From the IMG/VR virus record IMGVR_UViG_3300042309_001504, positions 1 through 64,000 of that record: a stretch of 64,000 nucleotides of DNA, one strand, 5' to 3'. The notes under the pieces were generated by a model. The model searched no databases and was not told the DNA's origin. It saw only the letters and a list, made by a program, of their open reading frames with translations. This document shows positions 5,334-37,754 of this stretch, one piece after another (the stretch's first letter is position 1; every line of letters starts with the position of its first letter). This stretch comes from a virus. The position numbers and the translations under genes are program-made.

Positions 5334-6653
5334 ATGCCAGCTCAAACATTAATTCAAATTCGTCGTGGTACAGCAGCATCATGGACAAGTGCAAATCCAA
5401 CACTATTTGCTGGTGAATGGGGATACGAAACAGATACTGGAAGGTATAAAGTTGGTGATGGTTTAACATCATGGACAACACTACCATATTCTGCTATTAC
5501 TCCGAATGCTACTAATTTAGTTACTAATAGTGGTATTGGAGCGTCGTTTGGAGCTAATGGTTTGCCTGTAACGATTAGTGTTACCGGTATTACTAGCAGT
5601 CAAGTTATCGATTTTGGTAGTGCTGTTAGCGGAATTGTTACATCTATTAGTATTAGTACCGAAGAAATTATGGATATTCTAGGTACAGGACTAGTTGGAG
5701 CAAGTGGTATTGGCATAGATTATCAAGACTCTTCCGATCAAATTGTAGTAAATGTTACAGGAATAACATCATCTCAAGTCACTAATTTTAATAGTAGCGT
5801 TAGTGGATTATTGCCAATTACAGATCTAACTGCTGGTACTGGTATTGGCATAACTAATATTGGCACAGATTATACAATATCTGTTACTGGAATTACTACT
5901 AGTTTAATAAATGATTTTGCTAGTGGTGTTGGTAATATTGTGGACACGACATTAGTTGCTGGAACCGGAATAGATTTAGCATACAATTCTGGCACTAATG
6001 AATTAACTATTGCTACCACAGGAGTTAGTTTTAATGGCCATACTCATGTTTGGAGTAATATTACTGATGCTTCTACTAAAGCTACTCTTAGCGAACTAGC
6101 TTATTTATCTGGTGTTACAGCAGGAACAGCAACTGCTAGTAGAGCATTAGTTGTTGATGCTAATAAAGATATTGGTGGAATCGGTAGCATAACCACAACC
6201 GGCAATATTACAATTGGTGGAAATCTTAATGTTCAGGGTACTACCACAACAGTTAATAGTACAACAGTAGATATTGGCGATAATATTATACGAGTTAATA
6301 CTAGTGGATTAACTACTGGTGGATTTGAAGTTTATACTGGTGTTGATTATAAACAGTTAGTTTGGAATGTGTCTAATAATAGATGGGAATTTACTGGAGG
6401 AAATGTTTATACTACTGGTAATTTTATTGGTAATTTAACTGGAAATGCCGATACTGTAACTAGTGGTGTTTATACCTATCAAACTGGTACTGTTACTAGT
6501 ACAATGATTCTTGATGGCACAATAGTAAATGCTGATATTAATAGTAGTGCTAATATTAATGTGCAAAAATTAGCCAGTGGTTCTACTGGACAAGTATTAC
6601 AAGTTAGTAGTACCGGTATAATATGGGGCAGTATTGACGGAGGAACACCATAA
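5334..6653 (+). CDS. Tail fibre protein with shared N-terminal attachment domain
   Basis: 439 residues, start preceded by AACGGAG. Residues 1-55 (LIQIRRGTAASW, G-E-W-G-Y-E-T, Y-K-V-G-D-G, S-W-T-T-L-P) match the short domain found at the N-terminus of many fibre and tropism-determinant proteins; the next gene begins with the same domain. The rest is Thr/Ser/Gly/Ile-rich beta repeats, including SSVSGLLP and ATLSELAYLSGVTAG segments that recur in other phage fibres. It should be a trimeric fibre or collar protein on the virion surface. The first module of the block shares a VDTTL...YNSGTN...LTI segment with the next gene, indicating duplication. No enzyme motif was seen. Confidence 0.75.
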   Translation: MPAQTLIQIRRGTAASWTSANPTLFAGEWGYETDTGRYKVGDGLTSWTTLPYSAITPNATNLVTNSGIGASFGANGLPVTISVTGITSSQVIDFGSAVSGIVTSISISTEEIMDILGTGLVGASGIGIDYQDSSDQIVVNVTGITSSQVTNFNSSVSGLLPITDLTAGTGIGITNIGTDYTISVTGITTSLINDFASGVGNIVDTTLVAGTGIDLAYNSGTNELTIATTGVSFNGHTHVWSNITDASTKATLSELAYLSGVTAGTATASRALVVDANKDIGGIGSITTTGNITIGGNLNVQGTTTTVNSTTVDIGDNIIRVNTSGLTTGGFEVYTGVDYKQLVWNVSNNRWEFTGGNVYTTGNFIGNLTGNADTVTSGVYTYQTGTVTSTMILDGTIVNADINSSANINVQKLASGSTGQVLQVSSTGIIWGSIDGGTP

Positions 6654-6695
6654 TATCATAATAAAGTATATTTTAAAATAGTATTAGGATAAGGT

Positions 6696-9600
6696 ATGCC
6701 CGCATATAATTTAATACAAATAAGAAAAGGAACTAGCACCGAATGGGCAAACCAAAATCCTATTTTATCTAGCGGTGAACCAGGATTTGATATAAGTAAT
6801 AATATATTAAAACTTGGTGATGGAGTTACAGCTTGGTCTAATTTAGATCCTATAGGTAGTGGTTTTATTTCTTCGCATACCGAAATTAATGTATTAAGTC
6901 AAGAACCACAAGGATTTGTTAATAGAATAGATAGCTCTATCAGTTTTAATGATAGTACTAGAACTTTTACTATTCAACCTACTGGTTCTAGTTACGATGT
7001 TTATATTGAAGGTATTAAAGTTACTAAAACTGGTATTGAAACCGTAGTTATCGATAGTGGTACAGCATTAAATTATATTCATTTTGATACTGATACAAAT
7101 CAATTACAAACTAAAACTTCATTTTTTAATTTTGATACTGATGTTCCAATTGCTTTCATTCACTGGAATAGTGGTATTGGTCAAAGCACTTTTTTTGGAG
7201 AAGAACGTCATGGTATAAGAATGGATACTACTACCCACAAGTGGATCCACAATACTTTCGGTATGCAATATATTAATGGACTAAGTATTGGTAACTATGT
7301 TCTTGAGGGAGATGGGACATCAAATAGTCACGCACAAATTAGTATTAGTGATGGAACTCTTTATCAAGAAGATATAGTTATTAATATTGCTGATGGTGAT
7401 AATGGAATTGAATTTACTCAACAATTATATCCAACTGGTTATTTTCCAGTTTATTATCATAGTGGAATTACTGGTCAGTGGGTAAGAGATTCTGGAACAC
7501 CATATCCAGTTAAATACAATGCTACAAGAGCATTATACAATTCGTATTCTGGTGGAACTTGGTCAGTTATTAATGTTCCAAATAATAGATATTTTGCAAT
7601 GTGGCTCGTTGCTACAAATGATATTAATGATCCCATATTGTCAATCATGGGACAAAGAGAAGATAGTAGCTTGGGTGCTGCGGAAAATAATAATAACTGG
7701 ACTGATATTGATCTGACAAATATTCCAACAAATGAGCTACGACCATTATACAGATTAATTTTCTTAACAAATAATACTTTTACCAATACTCCAAAAAGTA
7801 GTTTACAAAGTATATTAGACTTAAGACGAAGCATTCTTACAACTACTTATGGTGTACCACAAAATGATCACGGTAATTTATTCGGCTTGGGTGACGATGA
7901 TCATACTCAATATGTTCATATAAATGAAGCCAGAATTATTAGTGCTAATCATACATTTACCAATGGATTAACCATTAATAATGGACTATTATCTGCTACT
8001 AGTGGTAATTTTACATCTTTAACACTTAACAATACCGGAGTTAGTATTAGTGGACATACCCATATTGTTAATGATATAACAGATTTTGCTTCTGGTGTTG
8101 CTCAAGAAGTTGATACAACATTATCGTCTGGTAGTGGAATATCATTAGTTTATAATAGTGGAACAAATACCCTAACTATTAGTGCAACAGGATTGGCTTT
8201 AACTAATCATACTCATACGTCTTCAAACATTACCGATTTTAATAGTAGTGTTAGCGGATTACTTCCAACCATTGCTAATAGTGGTGATAATAGAATACTC
8301 ACTAGCACCGGCTCAACCGTTGGAATTAATGCTGAAAGTAATTTATCTTTTGATGGAAGCTTATTAAATGTAATTGGTAGTGGAAATTTTTCTAGTGGAT
8401 TAGTGATTAATAATCAAACAGCCAGTACCATCGCAAGTTTTGATAGTAATAAAAATGTTGCTTCTTTAAGTACAGCAACTTATCCATCACTCACAGAGCT
8501 TAGTTATGTTAAGGGCATAACAAGCGCTATTCAAACTCAAATTGACTCTAAAGCAGCTACTAGCACAACTATTACAGCAGGCAGCGGATTAGCTGGTGGT
8601 GGCAGTCTTGCAGCGAATAGAACAATAGATATAGGTCAGGGCGATGGAATAACCGTTAGTACGGATAATATAGCTGTTGATAGTACGGTTGTACGAACTA
8701 CTGGAACTCAAACTATTAGTGGAACGAAAACATTTACAGGTGATACGGTTTTCTCAACTGGAATTACAATTAGTTCTAGTGGCACAAATGTTCCACTTAC
8801 CATTACTAACGATGGTACTGGAAATAGTTTTGTTGTTAATGATGTTAGCGGTGATGCCGATCCTTTTGTAATTGATGCTGCTGGAAGAGTTGTTATTGGT
8901 GGCACTTCCGCATTTTCTGATGCTCATAAGTTTTCAATATTAGGTGGTCTACCATCTACAGCAGGGGTAACTGTTGGGTTTATATTACGAGCATTAGTTC
9001 CATCTAGTAGCACAAATAATTTTATATCATATTTTAGCAACATGGGGACAGAGACATCTTCATATACATTATCATCGTTAGAACATTATGCAGCGAATCA
9101 GCAGTCATTGGGCGTTGGTTCGGCTATTGGAAGTCAATATGGGTTTGTTGCAAGAGATTCGCTTATTGGCGCTACAAATAATTATGGATTTTATAGTAAT
9201 ATTGCGAGTGGCACCGGAAGATTTAATTTTTATGCTAATGGAACAGCAATTAATTATTTTGCTGGAAATGTTGGAATAGGAACAACTGGTCCAAGATCAA
9301 AATTAGATGTTCGTGGATTATCTCAATTTGTTGCTTCGTCTAATGGAACACCAGCACTTGGCGCAAATACACATTATACATCTACATTTGAAAATTTCTC
9401 TGGTAATTATGGACTTGGTATTAATGTTAATGCTAGTACTGGTATTGTTTTAGTTCAATCTCAAAGATTTGACAGTACAGCAACTGCTTATGATATTGGA
9501 TTTCAAACTTTAGGGGGAAATGTTGGAATAGCGGAAACTTCTCCTGCTAGAAAATTACATGTTAAAGAATCATCTGGTATTTTTACTTCTAGATTTGAGG

Positions 9601-11045
9601 GCGGCAATGCTGTAGGCGCTGCTGTAGAAATTAAAAATAGCACTACTCGCACATGGGAAGTTTCTGTTGCCGGTAGTACATCATTCGGACTTGTACCAAC
9701 AGGATCTTTATATTTTTATGATCAAACCGCTGGTTTAGCTAGATTAACTCTTAGCACAACAGGATCATTATTAACACAGATTTTAGGCACAGCCTCTGTT
9801 CCAACAATAAGCAATATTAATGATACTAATACTGGAATATATTGGCCTTCTAGTGATAATTTATTTTTTTCAACTGCTGGAGAAGCTAGATTACAAATTA
9901 ATAGTACGGGTAATATTGGTATAAATAATGCGCCAGTAAGTGAATACAAGTTGTTTGTTAACGGCGGAACAAGATCAGACTCTTCAACAACAAGCCCATC
10001 AATCGTATCTATAAAAAGTTTTACAAATGCCGTTGAAACTGGAGATAATTTATCATCAGCTACTTATGGATATTCTACAACAAGTGGTTCACATACAATA
10101 AGAAATGTTGCTGTAAATACATACTTTAAAATTAATTCTGGAGTAACCAACAGCGCTAGTAGCATTGGTATAGTAAACAATAATCTTCGTAATTATGGTT
10201 TAACAGATGATGCCGGAACATTAACTTCATTATTCGGTATATATAATCAATACGGCCATTATAATACTTCTGTTGTTTCTCCAACAACAACAACGGTTAT
10301 TGGTATACAAAATCTATTTTGGCAAGCCAATGGCACAATAACTACTGCTTTTGATATGTATTGTAGTAATGCTAGTTCTGGCGCTACTGTTACAAATAGA
10401 TGGGGTATATATGTAGAACATACTGGTAATAATTATTTTGGTGGAAATCTTGGTATTGCTATATCGCCAACACAAAAATTACACGTAGCTAGATCTGGAA
10501 CTGGAATAATTGGAAGATTTACAGATGCTACAACGCAAACATTAGATATTGGAGTAACAGCTTCTGCTGGCATGTATTTTGATAATCCAAATGGTGGATA
10601 TCAAGAGTGGCAAATTAGTGGTTCTGGAAAAATGCGCTTGACAGGCGGTGGCGAACTTTTAATTGGAACGACTACTGATAATGGAGCATATTTATTACAA
10701 GTAAATTCTCAAATCTATGCGACAAATGCAACTATTGCAACATCAGATATTAGATTTAAAACAAATGTACAAACTTTAACAAATGCAACAAATATTATAG
10801 AATCTTTAAGACCAGTAACATTTGATTTTATTCCACAAAGCTACAGAAACTTTGCGATAGAAAGACAAGTTGGTTTAATAGCTCAAGAAACATTACATAC
10901 ATTAAAAAATACAGATTATGTGGATAGTGTTGTTGCTAAGTGTGGCGACCACTTGGGTTTAGCCTATGAAAAATTAATACCAGTTTTAATCCGTGCGCTT
11001 CAAGAAAGTAATGCGAGAATTGCAGCATTAGAAGCCAGACTTTAA
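6696..11045 (+). CDS. Large tail fibre with C-terminal self-cleaving S74 chaperone
   Basis: 1449 residues. Residues 1-55 repeat the N-terminal domain of the preceding fibre. The long middle consists of Ser/Thr/Asn/Gly-rich beta modules, with an HTHTSSNITDFNSS module near residue 508 shared with the adhesin at 29121. The C-terminus, from about residue 1340, is an intramolecular chaperone of peptidase family S74: S-D-I-R-F-K places the Ser/Lys dyad at S1350 and K1355, followed by LRPVTFDF and RQVGLIAQE and a final coiled coil (ALQESNARIAALEARL). In this family the chaperone trimerises the fibre and cuts itself off before the serine. The host ligand is unknown. Confidence 0.85.
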   Translation: MPAYNLIQIRKGTSTEWANQNPILSSGEPGFDISNNILKLGDGVTAWSNLDPIGSGFISSHTEINVLSQEPQGFVNRIDSSISFNDSTRTFTIQPTGSSYDVYIEGIKVTKTGIETVVIDSGTALNYIHFDTDTNQLQTKTSFFNFDTDVPIAFIHWNSGIGQSTFFGEERHGIRMDTTTHKWIHNTFGMQYINGLSIGNYVLEGDGTSNSHAQISISDGTLYQEDIVINIADGDNGIEFTQQLYPTGYFPVYYHSGITGQWVRDSGTPYPVKYNATRALYNSYSGGTWSVINVPNNRYFAMWLVATNDINDPILSIMGQREDSSLGAAENNNNWTDIDLTNIPTNELRPLYRLIFLTNNTFTNTPKSSLQSILDLRRSILTTTYGVPQNDHGNLFGLGDDDHTQYVHINEARIISANHTFTNGLTINNGLLSATSGNFTSLTLNNTGVSISGHTHIVNDITDFASGVAQEVDTTLSSGSGISLVYNSGTNTLTISATGLALTNHTHTSSNITDFNSSVSGLLPTIANSGDNRILTSTGSTVGINAESNLSFDGSLLNVIGSGNFSSGLVINNQTASTIASFDSNKNVASLSTATYPSLTELSYVKGITSAIQTQIDSKAATSTTITAGSGLAGGGSLAANRTIDIGQGDGITVSTDNIAVDSTVVRTTGTQTISGTKTFTGDTVFSTGITISSSGTNVPLTITNDGTGNSFVVNDVSGDADPFVIDAAGRVVIGGTSAFSDAHKFSILGGLPSTAGVTVGFILRALVPSSSTNNFISYFSNMGTETSSYTLSSLEHYAANQQSLGVGSAIGSQYGFVARDSLIGATNNYGFYSNIASGTGRFNFYANGTAINYFAGNVGIGTTGPRSKLDVRGLSQFVASSNGTPALGANTHYTSTFENFSGNYGLGINVNASTGIVLVQSQRFDSTATAYDIGFQTLGGNVGIAETSPARKLHVKESSGIFTSRFEGGNAVGAAVEIKNSTTRTWEVSVAGSTSFGLVPTGSLYFYDQTAGLARLTLSTTGSLLTQILGTASVPTISNINDTNTGIYWPSSDNLFFSTAGEARLQINSTGNIGINNAPVSEYKLFVNGGTRSDSSTTSPSIVSIKSFTNAVETGDNLSSATYGYSTTSGSHTIRNVAVNTYFKINSGVTNSASSIGIVNNNLRNYGLTDDAGTLTSLFGIYNQYGHYNTSVVSPTTTTVIGIQNLFWQANGTITTAFDMYCSNASSGATVTNRWGIYVEHTGNNYFGGNLGIAISPTQKLHVARSGTGIIGRFTDATTQTLDIGVTASAGMYFDNPNGGYQEWQISGSGKMRLTGGGELLIGTTTDNGAYLLQVNSQIYATNATIATSDIRFKTNVQTLTNATNIIESLRPVTFDFIPQSYRNFAIERQVGLIAQETLHTLKNTDYVDSVVAKCGDHLGLAYEKLIPVLIRALQESNARIAALEARL

Positions 11046-17420: not shown

Positions 17421-20400
17421 ATGGCATCAGCATTTAATTTAACAGCACAACTCAATATAGTTGGACCAAATAATCTTAGACCAATTATTAGTAATCTAAG
17501 GCAACAACTTCAAGGATTGAATACTAATGTTAGTATTGGCATAGATCAAAATACATCTCGTAATGTTCGCACAGTTACTGCTGATTTGGTTAGATTAAAT
17601 TCTGTTTTGAGTCAAACAGCCGGTGTTGCGCAACAGGTTAATAATAATCTTAATAATATAGGATCATCTTTTACTAACATTCAAAGAGGATCCAATAATG
17701 CTGCTGGCGGTGTGAATAATGTTAATAATGCATTAACTAATGTTAATAGAAACTTATCACAATCAACCAATTTTATGGAACAATTTGGTCGTCAATCAGC
17801 TTTGGCTGTTAGACGTTTTTCTGCTTTTGCTGGTGCCACCAGCGTTATTTATGGATTGACCAGAGCATTTAGTAGCGCATTTGATGAGTTTATAAAATTT
17901 GACAAAGAATTAATTAAATTAGTACAAGTCACTGGTCAAAATGCTCAATCATTAAAAGGTTTGACTAATGAAATTACTAGATTATCAACATCATTAGGAG
18001 TTAGTTCATCAGAATTAATAAACGTATCATCAACATTAGCACAAGCTGGTTTAACAGCTAGTCAAACAAAAACCGCATTAGAAGCATTGGCTAAAGCTAG
18101 TTTGGCCCCATCATTTGATGATTTAACAAGAACTGTTGAAGGTAGTATTGCTGCTATGAGACAGTTTAATATTGGTGCTAGTCAATTAGAGGGCGCTCTT
18201 GGTAGTATCAATGCTGTTGCTGCCGCATTCGCCGTAGAAGCCGGAGATATTATTGCTGCTATTCAACGTACTGGTGGTGTGTTTGCAGCAGCTAGTAACG
18301 GAGTTAGTCAAGGTACTGATGCTCTTAATGAATTCGTTGCCGTGTTTACTAGTGTACGACAAACTACTCGTGAAAGCGCAGAAACTATTGCTACAGGTTT
18401 AAGAACTATTTTTACAAGATTACAACGTGGTAGCACTATTAATTTTCTAAAAGAAATCGGTATTAATCTTACAGACCTAGAAGGTAAGTTCGTTGGTCCA
18501 TATAAGGCTGTGGAATTATTAAATCAGGGACTAAGAAATCTTGATCCAAGAGATTTGCGATATAGTCAGATTATTGAAGAATTGGGCGGCTTTAGACAGA
18601 TTGGTAAGGTTATTCCTTTAATTCAACAATTTAGTGTTGCACAACAAGCATTGAAAGTTGCTCAAACAGGATCTGCTAGTTTAGCAAAAAATGCTGCTGA
18701 AGCACAATTGAGTTTAGCGAATCAATTTACTAAAGTTCGTGAAGAATTTTTAGCATTTGTTAGATCATTAGGAGAATCAAGAACATTTAGAACACTAACA
18801 AGTTTAGCACTAGGACTAGCAAGTTCATTAATTAGTGTTGCTAATGCTTTTAAACCAATACTACCATATCTAGCAATATTAGGAACGATTAGAGGCACTC
18901 AGGCTGCACTATCATTTGGACGCGGATTTATAGGAGGTTTTGGTGGTGGTGGCGGAGGAGGTGGTCCAACAACTGGTGGAGGTGGTACAACTCCTAATAC
19001 TCCATCTGGTCGCGGCGGTGGTGGACAAACACAAAATCCCAATCAACAAAACGTTTTGAATAATGCTACTGTGGTTGCTAATACAACGGCTATTACTAAT
19101 AATATCACATCATTAAATAATAATACAACAACACTTAATTCTTTAATAAATGCTGTTAATAGTTTATCTAGAGGATTAAATAGTGCAATAAATATTTTTG
19201 CAAGATTATCAACTCAAAGAGGAGCATTTGGTGCTGGTGGTAGAGTTTTAGGTTTTAGTAGCGGTGGAAGTGTTCCTGGAAGTGGAAACGGAGATAGTGT
19301 ACCGGCCATGTTGGAGCCGGGTGAGTTTGTTATGAATAAACAGGCTACTAAAAAATTAGGATCTAAAAATCTTAATAAATTAAATAAATATGCTTTTGGA
19401 GGAAAAATTAAAAACCTAACCACTATTAAACCTGATTTAAAAAAATTCTACGATACAGATAATGATAAAGATATTTATTCTCAGATCAATATTAATAGAC
19501 CAGTAGACAAACCATCATTTAGAAAAACAAGATTACAATATAGAGATAAAGCCGAAGATATATGGAATAAAGCATCTAGTATATTTATAGAAACCAAAGA
19601 TCTTGAGATGGCTAATAGTTATATTAGACAAAAAACTAAAATAGATCCCGGTTATTATGATGCAAAAGAATTGAGTCCAAATAATCAAGCGCCGGCAAGA
19701 TTTAATAGAATCCAAGGAGCTTTGGCTGAACGCACGGTTACAGGACAAACTCGTGGTTTAATTAAATTACCCAATATTGCTGGTGCTGATTTTGTTTACG
19801 GCAATAGTAATGGTACTAGATTTGTAGAAGTAAAAAATAAATTAGAAAAAACAGATGATAGTGATTTGATATCGAAAGCATTATTAGGATATGCTTTTAC
19901 TAATAGTAATTCGCCACAATTCTTTAAAAATAATAAACTAGATAATATTTCTAATTTAAATATTGAATTAAGATCAACAAATCCTTTAGATATTGCACAA
20001 TTTGCTGGTGGAGGAGAAGTATTAAAGTCTAAATTATCAACTATAAGAACTCTTTTAGGCGAATTTTATGGAAATGATCAAGAACTAATATCAAAATCAA
20101 TTTCTAATTCTATGATAATCGATGAGGCTCGTGCTGATAAAATTATTGCTAATTTAGAATCATCTAGATCACAGTTGCCATTGTTTAAAAAACTATTTTC
20201 AGAAAAATCATCTTCTGTTGGTGTTTTAAATGGATTTCCGATTGCTAGATATGATGCTATTGGCGGTGTTCAGAGTATGAGATTTGATGAATTAAAAGAT
20301 GAACAAACTATTAGAGAATTTGCAAAAAGAGGAAAATTAGCGATACAAGCTTCTCGTGGACCTGTTGGTAAACGTATAACTTATAGCGACCAAAAATCAG

Positions 20401-23400
20401 CAAGAAGAAGATTTGTAAATGGTGGAATAGTACAAGATATAGCATCCAATGAGGGATTATCGTTATCAGATGTTATCCTAGAAAAAATTCAATCTCTTGG
20501 AGGCATATCCGGAGTTAAAAAAATAATGGGATTAGGTGCTGGAGACAGAGGTTTAAGTTCTCTTTTGCAAGCCGGTAATATTAAGGCTGGAAAAAATTTA
20601 GAAAAAGCTGCTGATATTGTTAATAAAGCCCTAGAAACCAAACAGAATGATATAGCAAGTTTAACAAAAGTGGCTGTTGCTGGTTTAACCCCAATAGATT
20701 ATAATAAAGATTTTAAATGGGATATTGGTAATAGTCGTACTGTTTTTGCTAGCGCTAGAGGCTTTCCTAATAGATATATGGCTGATGTGTCCAAAATGCA
20801 AGAAGAGTCTTCTCAAGCCGCTAGTAAGTTTGCAGAAAATGTTCAGTATACTAGTATTTTTGGCAACAAACAACCGTTAGTATTTGACTTTGATGAAACA
20901 TTAGTGTCTGGTGCTGATATACTTGATGCTAGTGGGAAACCAGATATTCCACAATATTCAAATAGAGATGCTGTCAAACAAGCATTAGGAAAAGGAAGGT
21001 TAACAAGATTAGGAGCAAAACTTAAAACTCTAATAGATGCTGATCCTAATTTTATTAAACAAACAAGAATATTAACAGCTAGACCTCAAAGTACCGCCGA
21101 TTTATTATCTTCTACTTTAAAAAGTTTTGGTTTGCCATATGATACTTCTCTTATTACCGGGGTAAGTAAAGGATTAGGTACAGATATTCCAGGAGCAAAA
21201 GCAGCCAATTTAGCAGCTACAGAAAAATTAATAGACGATTCATTAGCAAATGTTAGTGCTGCTAAAAAGTTGGGTAAATCTGCGTTTTTATATAGTGAAC
21301 CAAAGGCTGGTGGTGCCGCATTTGATGAATTAATGGGACAGGGAAATATTGAGGGTGCTATTGTTGAAAAAGCCCTCGGTATGTTATTGGGATACCAATT
21401 AGATGTTGATAAATTAGAAAGAAATAGGGCCGTTGATTTTCCAGATGGATTAGGAGCGGCTGCACAATTTTTTGATATTGATCCTAATATTCCAACAGAG
21501 GTTAAACGCACATTAAATAATGATAGTTTTAATAAAGCAAGAGAAGAATTTGGACGATTCTTTACAGAAAATCCAACAAGGTTTGCTGATGGTGGAGTTG
21601 TTCCGGCACTATTAACTCCCGGAGAGGCTGTTATTGGTCCAGAATTAGCACAAAAGATTGGATATGGCAAATTACGACGAATGAATCGTGCGGATAAATA
21701 TGCTAGTGGTGGACAAATTAGTATAGTACCCGGACAAGGAAATAGTGATACCTACGGTCCTGTTCCATTACCTGTTGGTAGTTTTGTTATTAGAAAAAAG
21801 GCCACTCAGGCTTTAGGATTTAATAATGGCGGAAATGTTACCACAAGCAATGCTCAACAATCATATTATGCTTCACAACAATCTGCTAGAGTAACCAGCA
21901 TATTCTCAAGTATTAGTCCAAAGTTAGCAGATACATTACAAAGATTTAATGAGAATCTTGGTGGAACTGTTGCTAGTTTAGGATTAGCAGCCACCACTCT
22001 TAGTAGTCAATTACCAAAATTATATGCTAGTATAGATAGATATGCTGGCACATCATTACTCAGAAGTGCCGAAGCTGCTGGAATAACAGGTGCTTTACAA
22101 CAGGGTGGCGCTAATCTTTTTGCTTCTAAAAATATTGCCGAGCAGGCTGGTTTTGGTAGAACAGGCACAGCGGTTACAGTTTTAGCAAGTACTATTGGTG
22201 GTGCGGTTAGTGGATATTTAAGAAGCAGAGAAGAAAAACAGGCAGAAAATATAAGTAATGCTATTAAAGAAAGTGATAAAAGATTAGAAAATATCTTTAA
22301 TCGCTTAGAATCAGCAATATCATTATCAGCAGAAGAACGTAAAGGATTAAATCAACAATTATTAACAGAACTTGCTGGTCAATATAGTGCATTAGCAACT
22401 CCGTTAGAAAATGTAACAGAAACCTTTTCATCAAAAATATCAAGAGCAGCAGAATCATTGAGTGGGGCAGTATTAACATTTGCTTCTTTAAGAACAGCAA
22501 CTAGACGATCAGATGGCGGTATAGTTTATGCTAGTAAAGGAACACTAGTTAATTATGAACCCAAAGGAACTGATACTATACCCGCTATGCTTAGTAAAGG
22601 AGAATTTGTTGTAAATGCTAGATCTACTCGTAAAAATCTTGGACTTTTAAATGCTATTAATAAAAATAAAGGTGGTATTATTAGTCCAAATTATTTAGCA
22701 ATTGGTGGAGGATTGCGTACTCTTGCCGATTTTACGCCATTTGTTGGCAGCATATTGGATATTCTTGAAGGAGGAGGAGATATATTAGGAGGTAAAAGAG
22801 GGAGTGGATTTGGTAAAATTGGTATGGGTATTGGTGGACTAGGACTAGATATTTTTAGTGGAGGATTAGGCAGTCTTGGTAAGGGTGTTGCTAAAACAGC
22901 TATCAAAACAGGTTTACCAACAGCTATTGGTAATTTAGGAAGATCAGCGATTACTAGAGTTGCTGGTGGTAGAGGAGCAGCAGGTGCGGGAGCAGGTGGT
23001 GGTATGTTAGGAAGATTAGGGTCTTTTGCCGGATCTGTTGCTAATATGACCACGGGAAGTTTAGCTTTAGCCGGTGGTCAGGGATTGTATAGTTATTTGT
23101 CTGGTGGTGGACCAACAGCATCACAAAATACCAGACTGGCCGGATTAGGAGAAATGTTTAAAACATCATTACCAAGAGCAGCAGAAGCACAACTATCTGG
23201 TATGACCACACAACAATTATTAGATCAAAGAAGACAAACACAATCTTTTAAAGAAGGCTCAAAAGAACAAATAGATTTCTTGAGTGGACAAGATAGTATA
23301 GTAGTAAAAACAAGACAACTTGCTGAATTAAATACTGATAGAGCAAAAGCATTAGGATTAGAATCTTCCAAACTAGAAGAATATATAGCAACAGCAAAAA

Positions 23401-26400
23401 CAGCAAAGGGAGTTGATCCTACTAAACTTAGTGAAGACCAAAAGAAAGCATTAGAAGCTGAAAAATTAATTTCAGAAGCTAGAACCAATTTATATGTTGA
23501 GGCTTTTGAGGCCAATAGTGCATTAGCTAGAGAAGAAAAAGATGTTTTAATAAAACAAGCATTAGAAGCACAGAAAAAAACCGAACAAGGTATAGCATTA
23601 TCCAAAGAAGAACAAGCTGCTCTAGACAATGTTATTGGCAAGGGTAAAGAATATGTTGCTAATGTAACTAGAGAAATTAATGAAAAAGATCTTCTAAAAC
23701 GCACAATATCTGCTGTTACAGCATCAACACGCAATTTTACTGATGTTATTAATAATTTATCATCATCGCTAGATAGGGCGTCGTCATCTTTTGAAACATC
23801 ATTGGACAGAATAGATATTGCTGTTGGATCACGGTTAACTGGTCGTGCAGAATTTGGTAAAGTAGACAGAACAAATGAAAACGTTTTCAATAATCTAAGA
23901 GCTTATACTCAAAGAGAAATAGCTGCTGCTAGTGCTGGTATATCTAATATGTTTGGATTTAATAGAATGCAAACTGGAACTAGAACAAATGAAAGAGGAC
24001 AAGTTATACCAACAACACTAGCCGATACTTTAACAGAATCAACCTTAGCCCTTAGAACATTAGAGGTTGAATTACCAAGAATTTTAAGAAGTAGTGCTAA
24101 TGTGGCAGATAATAATCAAAATATACAACCACAAATAAAAGAAGCATTAAGAGCTGGTGGATTGAATGAAACTACCGCGAGAGAAATAGCAACCCAAATT
24201 ACTAATAAATTAAACGAACCCAATAGACAAGGTAATGCTATTTCATTTAGTGATATTGCTAATGATATTCCAGGATTTTTACAAACTATAGATAGTCTTA
24301 AAAAGCCTGTGGAATTTCAAGCCAAAATAACCAAAATAGTTAATGATAATTTAGAAAAATTTAATCAAAAATTACAAAGTGCCTCTGATGCTTTGGTAAG
24401 AGCAGCAGAAATAAGATCAGAATTTGAAAGAACAGGAAATGATTTTGCCACAAGATTATCTCAATCATTAGGATTCAGTACATCTTTGGATCAACAAAAT
24501 GCCGCATTTAATGCTGAAATTAGATCACTATCTACTGTGATCGATGAAAATGGACGAATAATGCAGCAAGGAACAACTGATCCATCTGTGTTAGCACAAA
24601 GAATAGAGCAGGGTAACGCTAATATTGCTGCTGAACAAGAAAGATTCATCAGAACAAATTTTGCAGGAAACGATGCTGAAGTTGCTAGATCCCAATATGC
24701 TATTATGAAACAAACACAAGCGGTTAATCAAAGTCAAAAAGCATTAGAAAAATTAGCAAATGATAGTTCAAGAGCCAGTAATGCTTTGAACAAAATAGAA
24801 GAAAGAAGAGGCACTCTGGAAAGTAGAAGATCAGGAATATTAGATGTTATTGGTAATATGAATAATCCTGATTACCTAATGCAATTAATACAAAGGGCTG
24901 GGGCCGTTAGTAGATTTGAACAAGGTAATGCTTCTATGGAGGATATCAGTCTTATTGCTCAAAATATAGATCAAATATTGACACTAAGAGGAGGCAAAGA
25001 AGGTCAGGACTTTTTAAGAAAATTCGGTCTCTTTATAGAAAGAAATTTTGCAAAAGAAAAACCAGAACTAAGACTAGGTGAGTTTATTAGTACAGCATTT
25101 AAACCAGAAACCGATCCTATTGTGCAACAAATGGCAGCAGCTGCTACTGAATATACAAGAATACAACAAGAGGCTCAACAAAAATTAATTAAACAACAAG
25201 AAGATGCAGCAAAAAAGATAACTGATACATTACCAACAGCAGCAGAAATCTTTAGGACCACTGTTGTTGGAGCAGCCAGAGAGGCTGCTGCTGAATTTAT
25301 GAGGATGGGAAATGCTAATAATGGTCAGCAACAGCAACAAGCACAAGTACAAGCTAATATGGCGAATATTGGAATTAATGGAAATGCTAATATTAATGTT
25401 TTGCCACAACAGCCACAAAAACAGGAAATTCCACAAATTCCACAGATACAACCAGTTAGACCAGTTAAAAAAGCCAAAGGAGGAATGATATATGCTAGTA
25501 ATGGACAATTTATAAACTTTCAACCAAGAGGAACTGATACTGTTCCTGCTATGTTGACTCCGGGCGAATTTGTTGTTAATGCCAAATCAACATCAAAACA
25601 CTTGCCATTGCTAAAAGCTATTAATAATGGAGTTAAAGGATATAGTAGTGGAGGAGTAGTTTATTTAGCAGACGGAGGCAAACCAGACGAACAAAATAAT
25701 GCTGGACGATTCGTAGTTCAAAATGGTATGCCAGTTGATATTAATAATCCTATGAGTATGAATCAACCACTAACTAGAAAGCAAATATTAGAACAAAGAA
25801 GCAAACAATACCAAGATATGCAAAGAGCCAGAAAAGAAGCATACGCAGCTATTGAAGACGATAGAAGGATTAGGAGATATGACATAGATTTAGACAATAG
25901 AAGATTCGAGCGAAGACAAGCAAGAGATTCGGAAATAGTCGATTTGATTGCTAATGGAGATTTAGTTGAAACAGCAAGATCATTAGGTGATAAATTGGGC
26001 TTCGCATATCAATATCGTCGAGCTGATGGTTCTTATTCTCCTGATATGCAAGAAAGTGCAGCCTTAACCGCTGCTAGAAAAATTAAAAGAGAAAGAGAAA
26101 AAGAACAAGAATTATCTCGTAGATATAAACCAGTAACATTAATGGAAGAAGTAATAGCTGAAATAAGTGGAAAACCACCTGAACCTCAACCTCTCACATC
26201 AAATGAAAAATCACAATTTGAATTATTAGATAGAGGACGCAAAATAGCAGCTCAGGCTGGTTGGGATATTAATGAACACAACAAGCTCGTTAGTGAGCAA
26301 ACATGGGGTCATAGGAATCCACTATCTGACTCTGATAGAGCAGCATTTGATGCGTATAAAGATTATGAAATTAAAAAACAAGCTGCTAAAACAGAAGAAG

Positions 26401-29105
26401 AAAACCAAAAAATAAAAGGAGAAAGACACACAGCCGAAATAAAATTAATAAATAAGGATATTGATGAAGCTGCAAAGAGAGCAAATGATACAAGACTAGC
26501 TGCTAAAACAGAAGCTGAAGCAAGAAAAGAAGCAAGAAAAACAAGCATAGAGACAAAATATGATAATAAAATAGAGGGTATAAATAAAACATTACGCAGC
26601 ATTATACATACCAATGGTAATAAAGATGATCTAAGTCTTATGGTGGCAGAAATGTCCGGACTTCCAGGATTATCTGAGGCTAGAGCACAGGAACTAATAG
26701 CAATAGCTAAAAGTGAATTTTTACAACAAAAAGAACAACAAGTATTATCGGAACAACAAAAACGAGACACAAAAGCAGTAACCTCTGCTGAAAAAGAGAA
26801 AAAACTTCAACAAGATCAACAAGAACGACAACAAGAAGAAGACAGAAGAATTGCAGCAATAGCTAGACAAGAAAATATATGGGTAGATCCGATAACTGGA
26901 AAAGTACAAGGAAGAACAGAGAAAGAATTAGCAGAAGCTAAAAAATATAAAGAAACAAATAGAAATGCCCCTACTACAGAAGTAGTACTGTATAAAGGAC
27001 AAGATGGTAAATGGGCCACAAAACCAGGTAAATCACTATTCCCACCAAGTGATCTAAGAAATAAATCTAAAAAAGAATTAGAAGATATGGAGAAGGCCAT
27101 AGATTTTGCTAAAAAGAATGCTAAAAAGGTTAAAGGCCAAAGACTAGCAGAAACAGAAGATAGATATCAAGAACTATTAACAAAAAATAAAAATAAAAAA
27201 CTTACTACAAATGAAACTGTGGAATATGCTAGACTAGCTAGAGAAAGAGGAGTTGATTGGAAAGAATTAAGTGGTGCTTCCGCAGGTATGGATCAGGCTA
27301 TTAGAGAAGAAAGTATAGCATCTCAAACAGCAGCAATGGATGCTATCGTAGGAGCAAATGTTTCTGCTACTACACCAGATCAAATGCGCAGAAATTTGGA
27401 TAGAAAAGAAATAGAATCTTTCGTAGAAGAAAAGAAGAATCTTCCTAGTGTGACTCCGGGAACTTTATTGGTTGGTGGTGCTATGATGGCGGGTAATGCT
27501 TTGGGTGGCGGAGGAGCTAAAATCACAGACGAACAAATAATGAATTATGGTAGTATGGAGATTCCTTGGAGTGCTAGCGAAGAATCAAATAGAAAATATG
27601 GATTCAAACCACGAACTATTAGAACACCTGGTTTAGCAAGTACTATAGACTTTTTTGCTGAAAGTAGTAATTTTATTCCGATAGGCGCCGGTTCTGTTGG
27701 AGCAGCAGCTGTTCGATCAAATGCCGCAAGATTAACTAGCAGATATGGTAAATTAGCAACTAGTGGTCGTGTTGTTGATAGTGCTGCTGCTAGAGCATTA
27801 AATACACAATCAGCAAATCAAAGTAGTAGAATAGCAAAAGCGGCACAAGAACAAGCCGCAGAGGCTACTAGACAGCGTATTGCTTCTCAAGAATTTACAC
27901 CGACTGTAAGATCATATAATACAGGATTTAGTAGAGAAGGCTATTCTCCTATGCAGTTATCCATGATGGATAATGCTCCTACTCCAATGAAGGAAGCCGG
28001 GGATTTATATTTTGATCTTGGAGGTAATCCTAGAGTAAGTACCAGTACAGTAATGTCCAGAGTCGAACAGGGCTGGGAAGATCGACAAATTGCTGATATG
28101 CTAATGAGAGAGAACTCTGCTAATATTCCCGAAAGAAAATCTTTAGTAGAAATGACAGGCGGAGAAGAAGCATTTAATACTGCTAGAATAGCAAAACAGG
28201 GCGAAGCTGAAGATGCTGCTCTCACATCACAACGAGGTCGTCCAAAGTCTCGCTATGATATTACTCCTCCAATAAGTAGTATGGATCCCTTAGAGGCGAC
28301 AAGAGCAAGAATGTCTGGAGAAACACCCACGATTTCACCAAAAGAACAAGCAGTAGTAAGAGCTGTTGAACAAAATCCATCAGCAACAGTATCTCAAATA
28401 GCAGAAACAATACGGAATGACACTGTCTATAAAAAACGTGGTGGATTAATATATGCTAGTAATGGAGCCTTAATTCCTTATTCTCCTCGTGGAACTGATA
28501 CTGTTCCGGCCATGCTAACTCCTGGTGAATTTGTTGTTAATAGAACATCCGCTCAAAAACATATGGGATTATTACGAAGTATTAATAATAATCCTAATCA
28601 ATATCTTAATAAGGGCGGAATGGTACAATATTTGGCGGAAGGTGGTTTGGGAAGAGGTGGAACCGTTTCATCCAATGGTGGCGCTATAGACTTTAGTGAA
28701 TTTTCTAATTCGGTGGGAGCTTTTGGAACATATGTTTTAACAATTCAAGATAGTTTTAGCCAAATTCAAAATCTGGACTTTGGTGTATTCAAAAGTAGTG
28801 TTGATTCATTAATATCAAGTTTTGCGGCCCTAAATGGTCCGGCCAATTTGTTTAATAATGCGGCACTAGCTTTTGGTAATAATATATCAGCAATAACAAC
28901 AGCTATAAATGCTTTAAGTAATATTCCTGATACTATAAATATTAATGGACGAATTGATATGCCAAGTAATATAACAGTATCACTAGAAGGTAATACTGGA
29001 GATTTAAGCATAGAAATTAAACGAGACATTCTAAATGCTGTAGCAAACGCACTATCTCAGGGTAATCCTGGTATTAATGTTGATAAATTAAGAGAACAAT
29101 CATAA
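17421..29105 (+). CDS. Giant tail tape measure protein with enzyme-like inserts
   Basis: 3894 residues, start preceded by AGGAAATT. Residues 1-450 show the usual tape-measure head: helical repeats and a T-T-R-E-S-A-E-T-I-A-T-G-L segment with following FLKEIGINL typical of the TMP core. Hydrophobic segments occur near 470-510 and 1755-1830, Gly-rich linkers near 505-545, and long charged coiled coils near 2180-2630 and 2870-3160. Six GG...GEFV-type segments occur at about residues 612, 1389, 1430, 1697, 2684 and 3672. Between the first two lie a PD-(D/E)XK-like domain (about 690-860) and a HAD-like domain (about 1150-1300). It sets tail length, threads the tube and is expelled during infection. 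Very long for the family; no lysozyme or peptidase motif was recognised. Confidence 0.9.
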   Translation: MASAFNLTAQLNIVGPNNLRPIISNLRQQLQGLNTNVSIGIDQNTSRNVRTVTADLVRLNSVLSQTAGVAQQVNNNLNNIGSSFTNIQRGSNNAAGGVNNVNNALTNVNRNLSQSTNFMEQFGRQSALAVRRFSAFAGATSVIYGLTRAFSSAFDEFIKFDKELIKLVQVTGQNAQSLKGLTNEITRLSTSLGVSSSELINVSSTLAQAGLTASQTKTALEALAKASLAPSFDDLTRTVEGSIAAMRQFNIGASQLEGALGSINAVAAAFAVEAGDIIAAIQRTGGVFAAASNGVSQGTDALNEFVAVFTSVRQTTRESAETIATGLRTIFTRLQRGSTINFLKEIGINLTDLEGKFVGPYKAVELLNQGLRNLDPRDLRYSQIIEELGGFRQIGKVIPLIQQFSVAQQALKVAQTGSASLAKNAAEAQLSLANQFTKVREEFLAFVRSLGESRTFRTLTSLALGLASSLISVANAFKPILPYLAILGTIRGTQAALSFGRGFIGGFGGGGGGGGPTTGGGGTTPNTPSGRGGGGQTQNPNQQNVLNNATVVANTTAITNNITSLNNNTTTLNSLINAVNSLSRGLNSAINIFARLSTQRGAFGAGGRVLGFSSGGSVPGSGNGDSVPAMLEPGEFVMNKQATKKLGSKNLNKLNKYAFGGKIKNLTTIKPDLKKFYDTDNDKDIYSQININRPVDKPSFRKTRLQYRDKAEDIWNKASSIFIETKDLEMANSYIRQKTKIDPGYYDAKELSPNNQAPARFNRIQGALAERTVTGQTRGLIKLPNIAGADFVYGNSNGTRFVEVKNKLEKTDDSDLISKALLGYAFTNSNSPQFFKNNKLDNISNLNIELRSTNPLDIAQFAGGGEVLKSKLSTIRTLLGEFYGNDQELISKSISNSMIIDEARADKIIANLESSRSQLPLFKKLFSEKSSSVGVLNGFPIARYDAIGGVQSMRFDELKDEQTIREFAKRGKLAIQASRGPVGKRITYSDQKSARRRFVNGGIVQDIASNEGLSLSDVILEKIQSLGGISGVKKIMGLGAGDRGLSSLLQAGNIKAGKNLEKAADIVNKALETKQNDIASLTKVAVAGLTPIDYNKDFKWDIGNSRTVFASARGFPNRYMADVSKMQEESSQAASKFAENVQYTSIFGNKQPLVFDFDETLVSGADILDASGKPDIPQYSNRDAVKQALGKGRLTRLGAKLKTLIDADPNFIKQTRILTARPQSTADLLSSTLKSFGLPYDTSLITGVSKGLGTDIPGAKAANLAATEKLIDDSLANVSAAKKLGKSAFLYSEPKAGGAAFDELMGQGNIEGAIVEKALGMLLGYQLDVDKLERNRAVDFPDGLGAAAQFFDIDPNIPTEVKRTLNNDSFNKAREEFGRFFTENPTRFADGGVVPALLTPGEAVIGPELAQKIGYGKLRRMNRADKYASGGQISIVPGQGNSDTYGPVPLPVGSFVIRKKATQALGFNNGGNVTTSNAQQSYYASQQSARVTSIFSSISPKLADTLQRFNENLGGTVASLGLAATTLSSQLPKLYASIDRYAGTSLLRSAEAAGITGALQQGGANLFASKNIAEQAGFGRTGTAVTVLASTIGGAVSGYLRSREEKQAENISNAIKESDKRLENIFNRLESAISLSAEERKGLNQQLLTELAGQYSALATPLENVTETFSSKISRAAESLSGAVLTFASLRTATRRSDGGIVYASKGTLVNYEPKGTDTIPAMLSKGEFVVNARSTRKNLGLLNAINKNKGGIISPNYLAIGGGLRTLADFTPFVGSILDILEGGGDILGGKRGSGFGKIGMGIGGLGLDIFSGGLGSLGKGVAKTAIKTGLPTAIGNLGRSAITRVAGGRGAAGAGAGGGMLGRLGSFAGSVANMTTGSLALAGGQGLYSYLSGGGPTASQNTRLAGLGEMFKTSLPRAAEAQLSGMTTQQLLDQRRQTQSFKEGSKEQIDFLSGQDSIVVKTRQLAELNTDRAKALGLESSKLEEYIATAKTAKGVDPTKLSEDQKKALEAEKLISEARTNLYVEAFEANSALAREEKDVLIKQALEAQKKTEQGIALSKEEQAALDNVIGKGKEYVANVTREINEKDLLKRTISAVTASTRNFTDVINNLSSSLDRASSSFETSLDRIDIAVGSRLTGRAEFGKVDRTNENVFNNLRAYTQREIAAASAGISNMFGFNRMQTGTRTNERGQVIPTTLADTLTESTLALRTLEVELPRILRSSANVADNNQNIQPQIKEALRAGGLNETTAREIATQITNKLNEPNRQGNAISFSDIANDIPGFLQTIDSLKKPVEFQAKITKIVNDNLEKFNQKLQSASDALVRAAEIRSEFERTGNDFATRLSQSLGFSTSLDQQNAAFNAEIRSLSTVIDENGRIMQQGTTDPSVLAQRIEQGNANIAAEQERFIRTNFAGNDAEVARSQYAIMKQTQAVNQSQKALEKLANDSSRASNALNKIEERRGTLESRRSGILDVIGNMNNPDYLMQLIQRAGAVSRFEQGNASMEDISLIAQNIDQILTLRGGKEGQDFLRKFGLFIERNFAKEKPELRLGEFISTAFKPETDPIVQQMAAAATEYTRIQQEAQQKLIKQQEDAAKKITDTLPTAAEIFRTTVVGAAREAAAEFMRMGNANNGQQQQQAQVQANMANIGINGNANINVLPQQPQKQEIPQIPQIQPVRPVKKAKGGMIYASNGQFINFQPRGTDTVPAMLTPGEFVVNAKSTSKHLPLLKAINNGVKGYSSGGVVYLADGGKPDEQNNAGRFVVQNGMPVDINNPMSMNQPLTRKQILEQRSKQYQDMQRARKEAYAAIEDDRRIRRYDIDLDNRRFERRQARDSEIVDLIANGDLVETARSLGDKLGFAYQYRRADGSYSPDMQESAALTAARKIKREREKEQELSRRYKPVTLMEEVIAEISGKPPEPQPLTSNEKSQFELLDRGRKIAAQAGWDINEHNKLVSEQTWGHRNPLSDSDRAAFDAYKDYEIKKQAAKTEEENQKIKGERHTAEIKLINKDIDEAAKRANDTRLAAKTEAEARKEARKTSIETKYDNKIEGINKTLRSIIHTNGNKDDLSLMVAEMSGLPGLSEARAQELIAIAKSEFLQQKEQQVLSEQQKRDTKAVTSAEKEKKLQQDQQERQQEEDRRIAAIARQENIWVDPITGKVQGRTEKELAEAKKYKETNRNAPTTEVVLYKGQDGKWATKPGKSLFPPSDLRNKSKKELEDMEKAIDFAKKNAKKVKGQRLAETEDRYQELLTKNKNKKLTTNETVEYARLARERGVDWKELSGASAGMDQAIREESIASQTAAMDAIVGANVSATTPDQMRRNLDRKEIESFVEEKKNLPSVTPGTLLVGGAMMAGNALGGGGAKITDEQIMNYGSMEIPWSASEESNRKYGFKPRTIRTPGLASTIDFFAESSNFIPIGAGSVGAAAVRSNAARLTSRYGKLATSGRVVDSAAARALNTQSANQSSRIAKAAQEQAAEATRQRIASQEFTPTVRSYNTGFSREGYSPMQLSMMDNAPTPMKEAGDLYFDLGGNPRVSTSTVMSRVEQGWEDRQIADMLMRENSANIPERKSLVEMTGGEEAFNTARIAKQGEAEDAALTSQRGRPKSRYDITPPISSMDPLEATRARMSGETPTISPKEQAVVRAVEQNPSATVSQIAETIRNDTVYKKRGGLIYASNGALIPYSPRGTDTVPAMLTPGEFVVNRTSAQKHMGLLRSINNNPNQYLNKGGMVQYLAEGGLGRGGTVSSNGGAIDFSEFSNSVGAFGTYVLTIQDSFSQIQNLDFGVFKSSVDSLISSFAALNGPANLFNNAALAFGNNISAITTAINALSNIPDTININGRIDMPSNITVSLEGNTGDLSIEIKRDILNAVANALSQGNPGINVDKLREQS
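19560..20010 (+). other. PD-(D/E)XK nuclease-like domain inside the tape measure
   Basis: Residues about 714-863 of the tape measure contain the ordered core of the fold: an N-terminal helix G-A-L-A-E with E770, then A-G-A-D-F-V-Y with D790, then R-F-V-E-V-K with E803 and K805, followed by a helix S-K-A-L-L-G-Y. E770, D790 and ExK are the expected metal-binding and catalytic residues and none is missing. The domain is bounded by Gly-Gly segments at about residue 660 and residue 861. Activity and target are unknown. Confidence 0.6.
20868..21310 (+). other. HAD phosphatase-like domain inside the tape measure
   Basis: Residues about 1150-1297 of the tape measure carry all four HAD motifs in order: VFDFDETLV (nucleophile D1156, acid/base D1158), ILTARP (motif II T1219), a lysine before the last motif (K1269 or an earlier one), and L-I-D-D-S (D1272, D1273) followed by N-V-S-A-A-K-K-L-G. 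In this superfamily such proteins hydrolyse phosphoesters through an aspartyl-phosphate. The domain is followed by a G-E-A-V segment of the Gly-Gly repeat type. Substrate is not predictable. Confidence 0.7.
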
Positions 29106-35441: not shown

Positions 35442-37754
35442 ATGAATATAGATTATACTATTAATAATGTTTCTTGTAATGGAGGAGATGATGGATCTAT
35501 ATCTATAGATACTATCGTATTAACCTCTGGCGAATATAATATTTATGGCTTTAATTATACTATTGATTGGACAGATAATATTGATAATGAACAATTATTA
35601 AATAGTAATTTAATTGCTACATCTTTAAGTGCTGATACTTATGGTTTTAGATTATTTGGAAATAGTACCTATAGTTCTTGGACATATGTAAACGTTACTG
35701 AACCATTACCACTAACAATTAACAGTATAATTAAAAACAATAATCCATGTAATACAAATGCAACTATAACCGTTAATATTAGTGGTGGGACACCGCCATA
35801 TACAACAACATATGATATTTACTCTATAGTCGGTTCTGGTACTGAAGTTGTATTTTCTGGACTAAATATTGATCTTAGTTCTTTAATATCTGTTACTGAT
35901 ACAGAAGGATGTTCTGTAACTAGCGACAGCACAACGGATATAGTTTTTTCTAATACTACTATTGATTTTTTATCACAAAGTCCACCATTAATTTATGATG
36001 ATCATTTAGAATCTTTTACTTTTTCTATTACTGGATATGGTCCATTCAAAATATTAATATGGAATACTGATGATAATGGTAATAAAAATACTGTTGTTGA
36101 TACAATAGAATTTTTTGATACATCTTATCTCACTAGTATTAATAATAATATATTTACTTATGATATAGGATCAATTATTTATCCAGGATCATATATTTTT
36201 GATATTATTGATTCTAATAACTGTTCAATTACAACATCTGTTTTAAATGCCCAGAATAGTAATCCTTTAAGTGTGAACTTAACATCTACTAATAATAATC
36301 CTATAGATAATGGATTTTTTATAAATACATCAACTATTTTTGATACATTATTGATACCAATCAATCTAATTATTAATAATAATAATTTATTAAATTTTAT
36401 AAAACAACTTAATCTTAATGATAAAATTTTGATTAAAATAAATGATGTAGAATATTTACAAAAGGTAATTCTATTTAACAAAAATAAAAGTAATATTGAT
36501 AATAATTATTTAGATATTTTGCAATTAGCGCCATCTTTAGATTGGTGGTTTTTTAGCATACCAATAGCTATAGGATTTGATTATACTACTCTCACAAATA
36601 TTTTTACAGATAATATACGTTTAGTATATAATAATGAAGAATATACTATTATTCCCGAACTAGATAATGAATCATCAACCATTAAACTAATTAGAGGAGC
36701 ATTAATATCAACAGCATTTAATACTTCCCAATTTAGCAAAAATAATAAAGTAGGAGTTTATTCTTTAAGTGGATCAGAATATACACTAATACAAGAAATA
36801 GAATCCACCTATAATACATCCCTATATAATACTTATGTTGCCGGTTTAGTATATCATATTAATTTTATGGATAATAATATTATTAATAGTAATATAGATA
36901 TTTTTAATCCACAAATCGATGCTCCATCACTAGATAAACTATCCTATCAACAAAAGGTTAAGAATGCTTTGGCTTTCATAAACAATACAAATAATACCAC
37001 ATATATTGCTGCATCACAAAATTATCAAAACAATGGTGGAATAACCTTTAATATTACTGGTGGATATATAGATAATAATTATTCTATAGAATATAAATAT
37101 TGGAACGAAGAATCTAATAATTTACAAAATATTTATTTGAATAACAATCCTTTAACTCAAACAAGAGCATACGGATTAAAAGAAGGCGTATATATTGTTA
37201 AAATTACAGACAAATATAATAATAAAATTAAAATATTAAATAATATATCTTATGATAATCATTATAGTGAAGCATTAAATTATATATATAATATTTTTAA
37301 TACTACTCCATCAAATTTAAATTTTCAGTATGGAGATCTACTAATTCCAGTATATAGATTGGGTTCGTCATCTACCACACTTCAAAATAGTATAATAGGT
37401 ACTGATCCACCAATAATTCCACCAGTTCCTGATCCTATAATTTTAACAGAAGAAATTATACAAGTTAATGTTACTAATAATAGTATATATAATAATAGTT
37501 TAATAGTAACTATTAATCCAACTAATATTAGCGCACATATTAGTGGTCCTAATGGTTATAATAAGATATTTTCTAATAAAACACAATTTAATAATTTACC
37601 ACCAGGGGTATATTATATAAGTGGTAATGATAATGAATTAAGAAATAATTATTTATTTAACAAATTAACTAAAGTTTATGTTAGCAATAATTTACAGGAT
37701 AATATTAATATTATTTTTGATAGTTATTTAAATCAATATATTGTAGGAAATTAA
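35442..37754 (+). CDS. Tail-tip protein with SprB-like repeats
   Basis: 770 residues, starting at the base after the preceding stop. Residues 7-20 (NNVSCNGGDDGSIS) and 95-160 (N-N-N-P-C-N-T-N-A-T-I, then ISGGTPPYTTTYD, then TDTEGC) match the pattern of SprB repeats, small beta-sandwich modules with a C-x-G-x-x-D-G start and a GGTPPY centre that occur in surface adhesins. A weaker third unit ends with I-I-D-S-N-N-C. The C-terminal half is Asn/Ile-rich with no motif recognised. It lies between distal tail rings and the hub-like protein, so a receptor-contact role is plausible. Base composition is among the most AT-rich in the window. Confidence 0.5.
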   Translation: MNIDYTINNVSCNGGDDGSISIDTIVLTSGEYNIYGFNYTIDWTDNIDNEQLLNSNLIATSLSADTYGFRLFGNSTYSSWTYVNVTEPLPLTINSIIKNNNPCNTNATITVNISGGTPPYTTTYDIYSIVGSGTEVVFSGLNIDLSSLISVTDTEGCSVTSDSTTDIVFSNTTIDFLSQSPPLIYDDHLESFTFSITGYGPFKILIWNTDDNGNKNTVVDTIEFFDTSYLTSINNNIFTYDIGSIIYPGSYIFDIIDSNNCSITTSVLNAQNSNPLSVNLTSTNNNPIDNGFFINTSTIFDTLLIPINLIINNNNLLNFIKQLNLNDKILIKINDVEYLQKVILFNKNKSNIDNNYLDILQLAPSLDWWFFSIPIAIGFDYTTLTNIFTDNIRLVYNNEEYTIIPELDNESSTIKLIRGALISTAFNTSQFSKNNKVGVYSLSGSEYTLIQEIESTYNTSLYNTYVAGLVYHINFMDNNIINSNIDIFNPQIDAPSLDKLSYQQKVKNALAFINNTNNTTYIAASQNYQNNGGITFNITGGYIDNNYSIEYKYWNEESNNLQNIYLNNNPLTQTRAYGLKEGVYIVKITDKYNNKIKILNNISYDNHYSEALNYIYNIFNTTPSNLNFQYGDLLIPVYRLGSSSTTLQNSIIGTDPPIIPPVPDPIILTEEIIQVNVTNNSIYNNSLIVTINPTNISAHISGPNGYNKIFSNKTQFNNLPPGVYYISGNDNELRNNYLFNKLTKVYVSNNLQDNINIIFDSYLNQYIVGN

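Follow-up and report, generated by a model that had tools for sequence, protein, structure and literature searches.

A HAD phosphatase-type domain in a variable, repeat-bounded compartment of a phage tail tape measure protein

The tape measure gene and its surroundings

The window, a stretch of 64,000 nucleotides that makes up positions 1 to 64,000 of the IMG/VR virus record IMGVR_UViG_3300042309_001504, contains on its plus strand an open reading frame of 3,894 amino acids (17421..29105). Residues 183–389 of its product match PhageMin_Tail in Pfam (PF10145, E=1.1e-24), and several PHROG tape-measure families match the same frame (e.g., phrog_28, 6e-26); by these profiles, the product is a tail tape measure protein. 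Tail-fibre-like genes are located at 5334–11045. The protein opens with a conserved N-terminal region (residues 1–530; 17421..19010) that is 51–60% identical to those of six relatives. A profile of the repeat places a first glycine-rich PGEFV repeat at residues 612–654 (19254..19382) and a second repeat region, made of PGEAV and VGSFV, at 21582..21827. These two are the left and right edges of a compartment, hereafter the cargo bay.

Three blocks occupy the bay, all encoded on the plus strand. A variable slot (residues 664–861; 19410..20003) has motifs that we read as PD-(D/E)XK-like ("QGALAERTV..AGADFVYG..FVEVKNK"); it has no Pfam match, and the stretch around it shows 42% identity in one relative (L072). 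It is followed by a conserved block of 127 amino acids (residues 869–995; 20025..20405) that recurs in relatives, and then by a module of ~400 amino acids (residues 996–1394), which is the unit homologous between the window and its relatives. The module consists, in this order, of N-terminal helices with a three-strand meander (residues 996–1149; 20406..20867), delimited by alignment and an AlphaFold2 model, a HAD phosphatase-type domain (residues 1150–1297; 20868..21311), recognized by alignment, AlphaFold2 and Foldseek, and a C-terminal segment (21336..21572) whose E1311, D1339 and E1360-x-K1362 come in the order found in PD-(D/E)XK nucleases. The initial annotation had set a HAD phosphatase domain within the tape measure at 20868–21310, which corresponds exactly to the HAD domain at residues 1150–1297; that part stands, and what had been overlooked is the PD-(D/E)XK-like partner within the module and the bay that the PGEFV repeats enclose.

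Several other genes of the record were observed. Downstream of the tape measure, a 770-aa protein (35442–37754, plus strand) matches the SprB repeat with E=2.5e-5, below the Pfam cut-off; this repeat is a Bacteroidetes adhesin repeat, and the match is a possible hint of the host. On the minus strand, DNA polymerase III alpha is apparently split into two frames (49418–53710), one with the PHP and polymerase NTPase domains (51872–53710) and the other with the finger, HhH and OB parts (49418–51016), and a 227-aa frame between them (51013–51696) appears by eye to be DnaQ-type exonuclease-like (FDFETDG...). A glycosyltransferase group 1 match (PF00534) lies at 47338–48948 on the minus strand, and a metallophosphatase (PF00149; locus L200, G000:C1:116530-117072, minus strand) is encoded elsewhere in the same virus record.

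Conservation and predicted fold of the HAD domain

The HAD motif set is complete and in order within the tape measure, as had been noted at the outset: motif I is DFDET at residue 1156 (20886..20900), with D1156 as the predicted nucleophile and D1158 as the predicted acid/base; motif II is LTARP at residue 1218 (21072..21086), which contains T1219; motif III is K1260 (21198..21200), identified by alignment; and motif IV is LIDDS at residue 1270 (21228..21242), which contains D1272 and D1273. Relatives of the domain were collected from IMG/VR with stepwise wider queries. The domain alone recovered two loci on two contigs, an alignment of the window with L001 recovered 13 loci, and a more diverse alignment (A4) recovered 23, including seven distant HADs (L113–L119) with 27–32% identity over about 130–170 residues; when these seven were used as the query, one scan gave 388 further relatives. 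The same insert is thus present in other tape measures of IMG/VR, which the initial annotation had suggested searching for. Two scans of GTDB genomes found no relatives of the module.

An alignment of 46 rows, consisting of 20 tape-measure HADs and 26 distant HADs with 26–60% identity to the window, was used to ask which positions vary. D1156, F1157, D1158, T1160, A1220, R1221, G1247, K1260, D1272 and D1273 are invariant, so that the motif residues are conserved among relatives. DFDET conforms to the DxDx(T/V) pattern of motif I through the invariant D1156, D1158 and T1160, the motif II position is occupied by T1219 in the window and by T or S across the aligned tape-measure HADs, and the lysine of motif III and the two aspartates of motif IV do not change at all. 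Over the HAD, the ratio dN/dS is 0.08–0.18 in the six pairs compared, which shows selection on the sequence; the value for the window pair is rough at a dS of 1.5. A chance motif match, a chimeric assembly and a misread frame are ruled out by the occurrence of the module in open tape-measure frames on many independent contigs.

The structure of residues 996–1394 was predicted with AlphaFold2 from the 46-sequence alignment, giving a mean pLDDT of 91.6 and a pTM of 0.75, with per-block pLDDT of 92–98 through most of the HAD; with only ten similar sequences the pLDDT was 45.5. In a Foldseek search against the PDB, the five hits of lowest E-value (E <0.001) were drimenol synthases (AsDMS), with TM-scores of 0.20–0.27; this fold was set aside for the module because the hits fail to superpose (rmsd ~20 Å). 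They are followed by HAD hydrolases, phosphoserine phosphatase and the 3'-phosphatase of T4 Pnkp (5uj0, TMt 0.55), and the HAD matches other than those named here have E-values from 7e-5 to 0.1. Against viral models, PNKP phosphatases were matched with TMt of 0.57–0.60 and rmsd of 4.3–5.0, such as the PNKP 3'-phosphatase A0A8S5T9U0 (TMt 0.60, rmsd 4.3) and I3UMB3 of Colwellia phage 9A (0.57), and PNKP 3'-phosphatases belong to those HAD fold matches whose alignment spans the greater part of the target. The predicted structure contains the Rossmann-like HAD core, and HAD phosphatases are recovered by fold.

By sequence, the domain is remote from characterized families. A single-sequence Pfam search of the window HAD gave as its best match PF06189, a 5'-nucleotidase family, with E=0.029, under the cut-off of that family; the single-sequence search of the PDB gave no match, and neither did tblastn against cultured phages at E<=0.01 or E<=1. 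The 46-row profile gave weak PDB hits with E-values of 0.08–1, two HAD phosphatase entries among them. Pfam and PDB sequence searches returned no PNKP match, and the likeness to PNKP is one of fold. Taken together, the alignment and the predicted structure strongly support that the tape measure contains a HAD phosphatase-type domain with every catalytic residue.

The distant HADs (L113–L119 and L120–L199) are found in giant ORFs on viral contigs of 20–70 kb. Those of L113–L119 measure 2,294–3,091 aa, and L116 runs off its contig. Of the 80 loci taken from that scan with a 3 kb flank (L120–L199), the 60 examined have FDFD(D/E)T in a long frame of 984–2,148 aa, and these are minimum lengths since nearly all of the frames are cut at the 5' edge of the flank. 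The 3,091-aa ORF of L119, which contains "SHEFVHGAF", is preceded by small ORFs and followed by repeat-rich ORFs with the look of virion genes. The giant proteins that carry the distant HADs are possibly ejection proteins, a label that no Pfam or PHROG family backs.

A repeat-bounded bay with variable enzyme-like contents

An alignment of the conserved N-terminal region (A3) matched at least 219 related tape measures, and the best 80 of the 219 yielded 65 distinct tape measures for a census of bays; the census was anchored on the N-termini of HAD-bearing tape measures, and its frequencies are biased in that direction. Two PGEFV repeats bound the region directly after the N-terminal part in 58 tape measures, the window included, and the bay between them measures 734 aa in the window and 176–3,027 aa among the 58. 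The HAD lies inside the bay in all 17 of the HAD-bearing tape measures with both repeats (log10 chance of −8.1, a naive value that treats the tape measures as unrelated).

Other contents were counted by phmmer and jackhmmer with segments read from the bays as queries. The GNAT-like segment (8/8), the ART-like segment (7/7), HExxH type 2 (4/4) and a second HAD-like segment (10/10) were always within the bay, as were seven of eight copies of HExxH type 1 and 48 of the PD-(D/E)XK C-type segments, with one outside. The nucleotidyltransferase-like segment lies in the bay in 9 of 11 cases, and both exceptions hinge on whether a second early repeat is taken as the bay end. The nucleotidyltransferase is the one label with Pfam support, which is weak (CTP_transf_like, E=0.0043; HIGH_NTase1_ass, E=0.0022); the GNAT, ART, zincin and PD-(D/E)XK labels are motif readings that had no match in Pfam. 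Several enzyme-like domains may share one polypeptide: in the window a firm HAD and motif-level PD-(D/E)XK-like parts, and in relatives further enzyme-like segments. A repeat-bounded bay with variable enzyme-like contents is shown for this tape-measure family, and a bay whose contents are exchangeable is a more notable result than the HAD alone.

Two of the recurrent segments were viewed individually. The bay domain at L007:8501-9670 has P-loop and HIGH-type nucleotidyltransferase motifs in addition to its weak CTP_transf_like match, and recurs in 11 tape measures. The second HAD-like domain (L055:5131-5604) has DFDRTL and SIISKS, and motif IV is absent from the sequences read; it also occurs in the bays of L019, L026, L028, L046, L048, L056, L062, L071 and L095.

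The C-terminal part of the HAD module can likewise be followed on its own. An iterated search detected it in 46 tape measures; it occurs without the HAD in L038, L077, L081, L096 and L060, and in L035 it is placed ahead of the HAD. The lysine of (E/D)xK is kept in all the HAD-bearing rows shown and is replaced by T in many HAD-less copies. Since many of these copies lack the ExK lysine, some bay domains may be inactive. Neither Pfam nor a PDB profile search of this part alone gave a profile match, and fold searches of the whole module are dominated by the HAD; we therefore call the segment PD-(D/E)XK-like at the level of motifs.

Distances between backbones and distances between HADs are correlated (Mantel r 0.74). 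Despite this overall correlation, the nearest neighbours by HAD and by backbone differ in several phages: the window is closest to L042 by backbone and to L093 by HAD, and L033 and L086 pair by HAD and not by backbone. PMC10684548 reports that mosaicism of recent origin could not be confirmed for tape measures.

Proposed delivery by the tape measure, and its alternatives

Tape measures sit in the tail tube and exit ahead of or with the DNA. We propose that in this uncultivated long-tailed phage family the tape measure may be a modular delivery vehicle, the exchangeable bay enzymes of which act in the host cytoplasm at genome entry, and we give this reading a probability of roughly 0.45. The protein combines a ruler backbone with a compartment after the conserved N-terminal region. 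Glycine-rich PGEFV repeats bound this compartment, and its enzyme-like domains differ from one phage of the family to another; in the window it holds a PD-(D/E)XK-like segment, the 127-aa block, and the ~400-aa module, in which the HAD is joined by another PD-(D/E)XK-like segment. The HAD would be an active Mg2+-dependent phosphatase that travels as part of the tape measure inside the tail tube and is pushed into the cell at genome ejection, so that the bay enzyme would arrive early. It may then remove phosphate from nucleic-acid ends or nucleotides, probably together with its nuclease-like partner, and its activity may shield the entering genome from host defence or prepare the host. Delivery coupled to the genome, followed by action in the host, fits the swappable bay, the distant relatives in giant proteins and the ejection of tape measures. 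The tail lumen is ~4 nm wide, in which a folded domain of ~16 kDa is a tight fit, and unfolding or proteolysis would be needed. In phage lambda, the tape measure is reported as the phage protein with robust labelling beside the inner-membrane ManYZ (ManZ) during genome injection (PMC13190303).

For the HAD itself, we infer activity, transport, delivery and substrate, and the domain is probably catalytically competent, interchangeable cargo that is delivered on infection. The fuller claim, that an active HAD phosphatase is injected as tape-measure cargo and acts on nucleic-acid ends or nucleotides, appears to us evenly poised. End processing or nucleotide dephosphorylation is suggested by the intact catalytic residues, the nuclease-like partner and the PNKP-type fold similarity; because the domain has no sequence-level match to a characterized phosphatase, its substrate is a guess from the fold. 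Neither an AAA_33 kinase nor an RNA_ligase, as looked for in a nucleic-acid repair operon, was found in the virus record.

The main rival to delivery is that the tape measure is a polyprotein from which a bay protease or a host protease frees the enzymes before or during tail assembly, in which case the HAD would work late in the producing cell. Tape measures are known to undergo proteolytic trimming, HExxH zincin-like segments recur in bays, and a bay ranging from 176 to 3,027 aa would disturb the ruler unless it is excluded or removed. However, the window bay has no HExxH in the sequence read, no cleavage site was identified, and other phages have the same HAD family in giant proteins, which are perhaps ejection proteins, so we regard release in the producing cell as somewhat unlikely. 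A structural spacer or retired enzyme, in which a fold passed on by descent serves to fold or pad the tape measure but does not catalyse, would agree with the catalytic loss that does occur in bays, where many PD-(D/E)XK-like copies are without the catalytic lysine and the second HAD-like domain is without motif IV in the sequences read. For the HAD we consider this improbable, as a spacer has no need of D1156, D1158, K1260, D1272 and D1273 together, yet none of the catalytic positions varies across the 46 sequences, the most distant of which share 26% identity with the window, and dN/dS does not exceed 0.18.

The HAD might also have its target in the envelope, where it would act on phosphorylated groups of the cell wall or of lipids, in the manner of tape-measure enzymes that act on peptidoglycan. 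The enzymatic tape-measure domains described in the literature consulted are cell-wall hydrolases, namely the motif of the mycobacteriophage TM4 tape measure (cited in PMC13277306) and, as transglycosylases, those of enterococcal phage tape measures (PMC10194240). However, the fold matches of the HAD include nucleic-acid and nucleotide HADs, and the neighbouring bay segments resemble domains with cytoplasmic action (nuclease, ART, GNAT and nucleotidyltransferase); an envelope target is thus quite improbable, and the one we favour least.

If the bay is delivered into the host, tape measures would be a class of phage protein-delivery vehicles, which would explain the large size of some of them, and the bays would supply a ready-made list of candidate early anti-defence or host-modifying enzymes. 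Delivery would likewise be relevant to the passage of folded domains through the tail tube and to the tolerance of the ruler for inserts of 0.2–3 thousand residues. Tail length control and early host takeover would then be encoded in one protein.

None of the open-licence PMC papers searched describes, by title or abstract, a HAD-bearing tape measure. The tape measures of TM4 and of enterococcal phages also have an embedded enzyme, which is a murein hydrolase, whereas here a phosphatase-type domain lies in a variable, repeat-bounded N-terminal bay. In Sle1 and Tme of contractile injection systems (PMC13277306), a tape-measure-like protein likewise takes an effector part through the tail tube, but these are effectors of bacterial injection systems with helical or membrane-active C-terminal parts, whereas the protein described here is a phage tape measure with exchangeable enzyme-like domains. 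PNKP-type 3'-phosphatases such as T4 Pnkp share the HAD fold, the four motifs and a similar size, and are among the closer fold matches; unlike them, the domain here has neither a kinase domain nor a sequence-level match and is housed in a tape measure together with a PD-(D/E)XK-like segment. The polyvalent proteins of phages and conjugative elements (Iyer et al. 2017, PMC5512222), in the searched text of which neither tape measures nor a HAD phosphatase domain appear, are also giant polypeptides with several unrelated enzyme-like domains and a proposed entry into the host with the DNA. The carrier here differs in being a bona fide tape measure with its payload in one defined bay; with injection inferred from tape-measure biology, the bay would add a further variety to the "polyvalent" injected proteins, one that has a tape measure as its scaffold.
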